Source: Planotetraspora phitsanulokensis
GTDB taxonomy: Bacteria > Actinomycetota > Actinomycetes > Streptosporangiales > Streptosporangiaceae
Reading direction: 5' to 3'
Assembly (NCBI RefSeq): GCF_016863295.1
Contig: NZ_BOOP01000035.1
Location: 101,952 to 151,053 of the forward strand
Length of the DNA stretch: 49,102 nucleotides
The position numbers and the translations under genes are program-made. This document shows positions 26,627-28,695 of the stretch, piece by piece (position 1 is the first letter of the stretch; each line of letters starts with the position of its first letter). Under the pieces are notes generated by a model. The model searched no databases, was not told the origin of the DNA, and saw only the letters and a program-made list of their open reading frames with translations.

Positions 26627-27805
26627 CTAGGGACGGCGCCCGGGGACCGTCGTCGAGCGGGGGAACGCCTTGATCAGCGCGCTGCGCTCGCGGGAGTCGA
26701 GGTCGTCGACCTGGCTCCTGCGGTCGACGCCGGCGGCGGCCAGCAGGGCGGCGGCCCGAGCCGAGCCGTAGTCGGGCAGGTGCCGCAGGACCCACAGGAC
26801 TCCGACCCGTCCCGCCACGCCGCCGTCGTCGCGGAGCACGTCGGCGAGGCTCATCCGGCCGGACGCCACAGCCGTGCCGAGGTCCGCACGGGTCATCGGA
26901 GACGCCGTGGCCGCGGGGGTGGAGGTGGGGGCGGCCGTCGGCGTGCCCGAGGCGCTCGCCGCCGCGTGATCGTCGTGTTCACGATGCGTGCGCACGCCGT
27001 ACGCGCCGACGAGGACGACGCCGCCGGTCACGACGATGGCCGCGGCGACGTCCAGGTGGCGTTTGGACACGATCGCCCGCTCGTGCCTGCTGGCGGCGTG
27101 GTGCATGCCGGCGATGGCCGTCCGCACCGCGACTCCCGTCACCATGCCCAGCAGGATCGGCACCACCTGGCCGGGAAGCGGACTCAGGGTCGCGGCGAGC
27201 ACTCCGACGGCAGGGCTCACACAGGCCACGACCAGCCACGGGGTGAGGCGCTGCCCGCCCACGTCGAGCAGCGCGGCCAGGGCCAGCCCCTCGCTGGCCG
27301 AATGGACCATCAGCGCGATCACCACGATGAGGGTGGCGTTCAACGCCAGCGTGGCGCCCTCGATCGCGCGGTGCAGAGTGAGCGCCGCAGCGGTCTCGAG
27401 TCCGCCGAAGACGGCCGCGCCGACCACGCCGCGCACACGGCGGTGCCGCCCGGGGGCGTGCTCGGCGGCGCGCGGCTGTGTGATCTCCAGGTCGCAGGCA
27501 CAGGACCTGCGGTTGTGGTGCGTGATCATCAGGAAGCCGAAAGCCGCCGCGAGTCCCACGGCCCACAGGGGGACGCCGCAGGCGACCGCGTCGCTCCAGG
27601 CATCGGGCAGCAGATCGGCGAGGGCCGTGACCAGCATCAACGCCGACGTGATCGCCAGCCATGCGGTCAACCGCCTGGAGTTGCGCCGCGCGAGCCAGGC
27701 CCCGGCGACGGTGGAGACCCCGACCAGGAGCACAGCCGTCCAAGTCCGCTCCGACACCGGGGGCACCATCGTCGCCACGGCCCGGGTCCAGTCGGCTGAG
27801 GGCAT
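26627..27805 (-). CDS. ZIP-like metal permease fused to an IHF-like helix-hairpin domain
   Basis: 392 residues, about eight membrane helices between 21 and 270. ZIP-type metal sites are HRAIEG at 145-150 and HSASEG at 168-173, with CAC at 102-104 and several histidines in the cytoplasmic-type loop. A His-rich (HREHDDH, 274-280) and Ala/Thr/Pro-rich linker (281-303) leads to residues 304-381. These align without gaps over 39 positions from LPDYG with actinobacterial integration host factor (LPGVGKVRAKQIMERLGIS), and the preceding SLADVL matches too. The hairpin GVGK has become DYGS and basic residues are partly lost. In ZIP topology the C-terminus is extracytoplasmic. GGAG stands 10 bases before the ATG. 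Confidence 0.75.
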   Translation of the reverse strand: MPSADWTRAVATMVPPVSERTWTAVLLVGVSTVAGAWLARRNSRRLTAWLAITSALMLVTALADLLPDAWSDAVACGVPLWAVGLAAAFGFLMITHHNRRSCACDLEITQPRAAEHAPGRHRRVRGVVGAAVFGGLETAAALTLHRAIEGATLALNATLIVVIALMVHSASEGLALAALLDVGGQRLTPWLVVACVSPAVGVLAATLSPLPGQVVPILLGMVTGVAVRTAIAGMHHAASRHERAIVSKRHLDVAAAIVVTGGVVLVGAYGVRTHREHDDHAAASASGTPTAAPTSTPAATASPMTRADLGTAVASGRMSLADVLRDDGGVAGRVGVLWVLRHLPDYGSARAAALLAAAGVDRRSQVDDLDSRERSALIKAFPRSTTVPGRRP

Positions 27806-28022: not shown

Positions 28023-28058
28023 GTAAACAGAGAGTAACTGGTAACAACCGAGAGTGAC
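28023..28058 (+). promoter_or_regulatory. Tandem GTAAC repeats before the SH3b gene
   Basis: GTAAC at 28034 and 28041 (7-base period), flanked by GTAAA (28023) and GTGAC (28054). The array resembles direct-repeat sites of response regulators such as MtrA that control cell-wall genes. The rest of the 275-base divergent gap (27806-28080) shows no gene. Confidence 0.35.
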
Positions 28059-28080
28059 AACGCGTCCGAAGGGAGCCACC

Positions 28081-28695
28081 GTGGCAATCGTCAAGGGGAT
28101 CATCCCCGCCCTGACCGTGTGCGCCACCGCGGGAGTGCTCGTGATCGCCTCCGCGCCCGCCCTGGGCGCCGGCAAGCCCATCGACGAACCGGCCGCCGCG
28201 CCCGTCGTCAAGCCGGTGCACGAGCCGTACCGGCCGCCCATGTCGTGCATGTACCAGGTGGTCAAGGTCCGCCCGTCGAGCTTCCTCAACGTCAGACAGG
28301 GGCCGGGGCTGCGCTACCGGCCCGTCGGCGAGCTCACGGTGGCCGACGGCCGCTTCGTCGGAGCATGCGGCGTCTCTCACGGCTGGGTGGCGCTGACGTC
28401 CTCCTCCGGCAAGCTCGGCTGGGCCTCCGCCGGCTACCTGTACCGGATCCCCACGCCTCACCCCTCACTCGTACGGCGTCCCGCGCTCTCCTGCAGCTAC
28501 CGGGTCGCCAACGTGCGCAGGGGCGGTCACCTCCAGGTGAGGAAGGGGCCGGGCCTCACCTACGAGCAGATCGGAACGCTCGACGAGACCGACGGTCGCT
28601 TCGCCGGCGCCTGCAGCGCGTGGCGCGGCTGGGTCGCCGTGACGACCTCCGGCGGGCTGCCCGGCTGGGCCTCGTCCCGCTACCTCAAGAAGTAG
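28081..28695 (+). CDS. Secreted protein with two SH3b domains
   Basis: 204 residues from a GTG at 28081 with GAAGGGAG upstream. Signal peptide about 1-31 (ending ALGAGK). Two copies of a bacterial SH3 domain follow: residues about 56-125 and 135-204, each with an opening cysteine (SCMYQV, SCSYRV), LxVRxGPGLxY, a second cysteine (GACG, GACS) and a closing GWASxxYL. The paired cysteines suggest a disulfide in each domain. Such domains usually bind cell-wall peptide; no catalytic domain is attached. Confidence 0.85.
   Translation: MAIVKGIIPALTVCATAGVLVIASAPALGAGKPIDEPAAAPVVKPVHEPYRPPMSCMYQVVKVRPSSFLNVRQGPGLRYRPVGELTVADGRFVGACGVSHGWVALTSSSGKLGWASAGYLYRIPTPHPSLVRRPALSCSYRVANVRRGGHLQVRKGPGLTYEQIGTLDETDGRFAGACSAWRGWVAVTTSGGLPGWASSRYLKK

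Follow-up and report, generated by a model that had tools for sequence, protein, structure and literature searches.

A ZIP-like permease with a C-terminal IHF-type H2TH domain in Planotetraspora phitsanulokensis and related actinobacteria

The actinobacterial IHF is a known nucleoid protein. ComEA is membrane-anchored and presents an extracytoplasmic DNA-binding hairpin domain on a flexible linker. mIHF is called exclusively cytosolic (PMC6155035). For the ZIP transporter BbZIP the residues M99, H177, N178, E181, Q207, D208, E211 and E240 are named as site residues, and M99, H177, E181, Q207 and E211 as those moving at M1 (PMC9873690); on our reading N178, D208 and E240 are the M2 residues. 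Finally, the PacL1-CtpC zinc efflux platform pairs a metal transporter with a scaffold-like, metal-binding protein whose gene lies next to it (PMC9374683).

The stretch of DNA analysed here (the window) comprises 49,102 nucleotides of a P. phitsanulokensis contig. On its reverse strand, to which all parts of the gene described below belong, positions 26627..27805 encode a protein of 392 amino acids plus stop, whose translation joins a ZIP-like permease, a linker and an IHF-type H2TH domain in one frame, whereas free-standing IHFs have about 105 amino acids. The eight-helix ZIP-like core takes up about residues 19-268 (27002..27751), followed by a Pro/Thr/Ala/Ser-rich linker (residues 269-303, 26897..27001) and the IHF-type domain (residues 304-381, 26663..26896). 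In the structure model of the window protein the pLDDT block means of linker residues 271-300 are 58, 50 and 45. The host genome harbours three copies of this architecture, namely the window copy and paralogues on contigs C3 and C7, and four Planotetraspora orthologues of the window gene (L035, L036, L037, L046) share 68-93% identity with it, the highest value belonging to L036. The first-pass annotation had proposed an IHF-like C-terminal domain on a ZIP-like permease; this observation is confirmed and its reading is supported overall.

The eight-helix ZIP fold of the ZIP (SLC39) family, which had also been proposed, is recovered for the core by structure comparison, but the structural identity to BbZIP and gufA-type ZIP transporters is just 15-19%. 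A PDB sequence search with the window protein found no ZIP chain, and the Pfam Zip profile scores 18.8 bits versus a curated cut-off of 35.1. Because this cut-off is missed, we name the core ZIP-like and do not treat it as a curated member of the family. A PHROGs search returned nothing useful.

Two metal motifs had been pointed out, HRAIEG in helix 4 (residues 145-150, 27356..27373) and HSASEG in helix 5 (residues 168-173, 27287..27304), and they are strictly conserved: H145, R146, E149, H168, S169 and E172 are invariant in 38 aligned rows. The motifs have the spacing of BbZIP H177/N178/E181 and Q207/D208/E211, respectively. By this spacing H145, E149, H168 and E172 fill the M1 places of helices 4 and 5, and H145, E149 and E172 correspond, again by motif spacing only, to the M1 ligands H177, E181 and E211 named in PMC9873690. 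The other binuclear-site residues of BbZIP (N178, D208, E240) are unmatched in the window protein: N178 and D208 are replaced by the invariant R146 and S169, and helix 6, which holds E240 in BbZIP, is free of Asp and Glu. Since the M1 places are filled, N178 and D208 replaced and helix 6 devoid of acidic residues, a mononuclear M1-type site is likely. Among the divalent metals zinc is the probable substrate. Metal transport by the core is only putative, because the second site is partly missing, the Pfam Zip cut-off is missed and no ZIP chain was found in the PDB by sequence; the ArsR and CDF neighbours described below would also fit a role as an export accessory.

ZIP proteins have both termini outside, and the distribution of basic residues in the loops agrees with this. 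With helix limits set by hand from the structure model, the predicted inside loops contain 3.9, 2.2, 2.2 and 2.9 Lys and Arg per 10 amino acids over the 38 rows, versus 0.6, 0.3, 0.0 and 0.2 in the outside loops and 0.8 in the C-terminal tail. The predicted cytoplasmic loop between helices 3 and 4 (residues 98-127, 27425..27514) is rich in Cys and His, contains on average 6.5 Lys and Arg and 3.3 His per loop in these rows and has the invariant residues H116 and H121. Eight helices combined with this strongly basic His/Cys-rich loop on the inside bring the C-terminus to the outside. From this indirect evidence we strongly infer that the C-terminus, and with it the IHF domain, is extracytoplasmic, as the first-pass annotation had expected from ZIP topology.

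In the model of the full-length protein, residues 304-381 adopt the H2TH fold of actinobacterial IHF. Foldseek superposes them on sIHF and mIHF (NF041260) with an rmsd of 1.2-1.3 A over 78-79 columns at 24-28% identity, and the core residues follow in the same order. The NF041260 profile gives the window protein 36.1 bits, below the curated score of 60, and one fused relative reaches 63.7 bits. Structure and profile thus both identify the IHF/H2TH fold that had been suggested for this region, and a chance match is rejected. What separates the domain from sIHF and mIHF is its place at the C-terminus of a membrane protein, predicted to be outside.

A second difference concerns the residues by which IHF presumably touches DNA. 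In the 40 free IHFs of the comparison, position 335 is always Lys, positions 345 and 347 are the two Gly of the GxG hairpin, Arg364 and Arg365 form the RR pair, and position 368 is Gly; structural work on sIHF reportedly assigns DNA contacts to the Lys335, GxG and RR-pair positions. In the 46 fused domains these motifs are mostly altered. G345 is kept in 86%, the second Gly of the hairpin, G347, in 13%, R364 is found in 39% and R365 in 21%, and Lys335 is not one of the four commonest residues at its position. The invariant Gly368 has given way to a near-fixed acidic residue (Asp 80%, Glu 8%, together 88%). The window protein itself has D345 with G347 kept, S364/Q365 and G335, and most of the hairpin region is missing from the seven Herbidospora copies. 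The alteration of the DNA-contact motifs, originally noticed for the window hairpin, therefore extends across the family. The core of the domain is nearly unchanged, with L369 and L377 in 46/46 and R374 and G316 in 97% each. These replacements suggest that the fused domains may have lost DNA binding.

The architecture resembles ComEA in membrane anchoring, in the extracytoplasmic hairpin-type domain and in the flexible linker, while fold family and anchor differ, and the hairpin which binds DNA in ComEA is mostly changed in the IHF domain. By analogy, the outside domain might bind extracellular DNA or another polyanion such as wall teichoic acid and so keep the permease near metal-loaded polymers. 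We consider such a role unlikely. The kinship to IHF speaks for it, as does the predicted position outside at the end of a flexible linker, and three copies of an Actinomadura clade (L068, L073, L075) are very basic, with net charges of +10, +15 and +14, a preserved RR pair and Arg-containing linkers of 101-199 residues. Because of these three copies, binding of DNA or polyanions may persist in this clade. Averaged over all fused domains, however, the net charge is +3.2, with values between -2 and +15, whereas the two free IHF types average +5.2 and +6.0, and the loss of the second GxG Gly and of the conserved Lys, as well as the reduced hairpin in Herbidospora, speak against the idea. Combining both possibilities, the chromosome-packaging domain could have moved out of the cell to become the envelope-facing half of the permease: the basic Actinomadura branch would still grip polyanions (extracellular DNA, wall polymers) so that the permease draws metal from them, and the other branches, with their near-fixed acidic residue, would be retuned for a partner, protein or wall, that gates transport. 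This is a speculative variant to which we give little credence.

A scan of GTDB genome contigs yielded 61 loci with relatives of the permease, and the same fusion, sought in related genomes, is present in 43 of them, in one open frame and in many assemblies, which excludes a frameshift or assembly artefact as its source. The fused loci belong to Planotetraspora, Acrocarpospora, Herbidospora, Microbispora, Microtetraspora, Streptosporangium, Nonomuraea, Actinomadura, Actinoallomurus and unclassified Streptosporangiaceae; they are not independent, as near-copies (seven from Herbidospora, several from Planotetraspora and Acrocarpospora) are each counted singly. Their linkers have 26-199 residues (median 37) and consist on average to 56% of Pro, Thr, Ser and Ala. 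The permease is found mainly in Streptosporangiaceae and Thermomonosporaceae. Among 394 genomes of the class (the own genome included, 4 candidates scored per genome) at least 4 match at E 1e-15, all from the window's own family. The core nevertheless exists beyond this family, because four Pseudonocardiaceae loci encode domain-free relatives.

Altogether the IHF domain is absent from 18 of the 61 loci. The domain-free homologues share the boundary of the fused ones, as 8 of the 18 stop directly after helix 8, and tblastn with eight fused domains found no hidden IHF remnants in these 18 loci at E 0.01. In the unfused permease L090 a long stretch of PLLRSGP-like repeats at the C-terminus takes the place of the IHF domain. 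In a quick tree of the core (64 rows) with several long branches the presence of the domain needs at least 10 changes, six of them forced by well-supported branches. Since it is missing in 18 loci and at least six changes are forced, the domain is dispensable.

The first-pass annotation compared the domain with sIHF. The kinship to IHF holds, but canonical sIHF is not favoured as nearest relative, as a second free-standing type of IHF is closer. Going by score only, 28 matches of about 92-123 bits are assigned to this type (for example L025-L034). They come from 27 of 100 genomes of the family, and nine of the sequences were examined. A two-residue insert present in 31/31 canonical IHFs is found in 0/9 second-type IHFs and 0/46 fused domains. 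The unrooted domain tree (86 rows, 79 columns) has a branch that keeps all 46 fused domains together on one side, with a support of 92, which is not conclusive, and the nine second-type IHFs stand between them and canonical IHF. The simplest reading would be a single gain from a second-type IHF with several later losses. One further IHF domain (L028/L135, G005:C16) is 95% identical to that of L086, no permease was found in front of it, and it is likely a remnant.

Such a history could mean that the domain is a relict passenger, a historical fusion retained with little function. Besides the 18 domain-free loci and the repeated changes on the core tree, L054 and L056 would fit this view: both are closely related to the C3 paralogue and have lost the domain, their reading frames ending in the linker. 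But dN/dS, computed for six orthologue pairs from Planotetraspora, amounts to 0.05-0.42 in the domain versus 0.5-1.2 in the linker and 0.18-0.25 in the core; the domain exceeds the core in four of the six pairs, on small counts and without a statistical test. Together with the occurrence of the domain in ten named genera and the nearly fixed residues L369, L377 and R374, this constraint makes a mere passenger, in our view, quite improbable.

The wider conserved neighbour of the permease is a gene of the DivIVA family. It directly adjoins the permease gene on the same strand in 46/61 loci, either overlapping it slightly or separated by at most 189 bases. The family assignment was confirmed by Pfam in both examples tested. 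Several of these genes (e.g. L044:7079-7816, L077:9078-9401; loci L035-L095) are His-rich at one end. The pairing would suggest a physical partnership of the two proteins. It is as frequent in unfused loci (13/18) as in fused ones (33/43) and therefore says nothing about the IHF domain; a tie between the domain and DivIVA is rejected. This also bears on a possible alternative, in which a cytoplasmic C-terminus would let the domain tie the chromosome to DivIVA-marked membrane. The pairing as such and the kinship to IHF would suit a nucleoid tether of this kind, but DivIVA accompanies unfused cores equally, the DNA-contact residues are mostly changed, and both the alternation of loop charge and the eight-helix ZIP fold place the tail outside, so that we regard it as very improbable.

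Clustering across 62 neighbourhoods detected proteins of the CDF family in 35 of them and regulators of the ArsR family in 28. The genes of these neighbourhoods were called by a crude composition script, and their family labels are guesses apart from the Pfam-confirmed examples, one each for CDF and ArsR. The C7 paralogue lies near DivIVA and CDF genes, the C3 paralogue near DivIVA, CDF and ArsR genes. The window's four Planotetraspora orthologues are without a DivIVA neighbour, and tblastn with one query each detected no DivIVA, CDF or ArsR gene in the 49 kb window at E 1e-6. Here the permease gene sits between a multicopper oxidase gene and a gene (28054..28695, forward strand) whose small product contains two SH3 stretches of the bacterial kind, followed by sodC. 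According to clustering, relatives of the SH3 protein occur in L036 and L046 as well as in four further neighbourhoods. The adjacency of multicopper oxidase and sodC, which had been suggested as a feature to follow, persists in the four orthologues and is not seen elsewhere among the 62 neighbourhoods, which rejects these genes as general partners. The gene pair recalls PacL1-CtpC, in so far as a metal transporter gene stands beside a gene for a scaffold-like protein; this is an analogy only, as the transporter there is a P-type ATPase and the scaffold a small membrane protein (PMC9374683), in contrast to a ZIP protein with DivIVA.

We give slightly better than even credence to a ZIP-type permease with an outside docking or sensing domain of altered DNA contacts, whose core works inside with a DivIVA-family partner. 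To the C-terminus of a permease for divalent metal, probably zinc, an H2TH domain akin to second-type IHF would have been added, most simply once, and several lineages would have lost it later. As the domain, on its flexible linker, is predicted to lie outside the membrane and its DNA-contact surface is changed, its most likely role would be to dock to or sense a protein or cell-wall ligand outside the cytoplasm, and in this role it may position or gate the permease. The first-pass annotation had already thought of a sensor or protein-binding domain. Inside, the core and the DivIVA-family coiled-coil neighbour, His-rich at several loci, could form a localised metal-handling platform running under ArsR/CDF-type zinc homeostasis.

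An IHF fusion as such is not new, because other partners occur. Seven stretches with odd or long frames were read; G001:C133, G003:C344 and further long frames stand outside this count. In five of them the IHF domain shares its open frame with a partner, as in the permease. Judged by reading the sequence, this partner is a guanylate-kinase-like domain in four (L129, L130, L131, L133) and a MarR-like regulator domain in one (L132), but these partners look soluble and cytoplasmic. Of the other two, L134 is an ordinary IHF whose open frame merely runs upstream, and L135 is the remnant mentioned above. Among the matches examined, only this permease sets an IHF domain into a membrane protein. In titles and abstract openings of the CC-licensed PMC literature neither a ZIP-IHF fusion nor a ZIP-DivIVA pair appeared among the matches listed; since the search spanned CC-licensed and not subscription papers, this silence is weak evidence of novelty.

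If the outside function is true, the permease would clearly exemplify how a DNA-packaging fold can switch both compartment and job. The ZIP-DivIVA gene pair, in turn, makes the location of metal permeases in hyphal cells a testable question.
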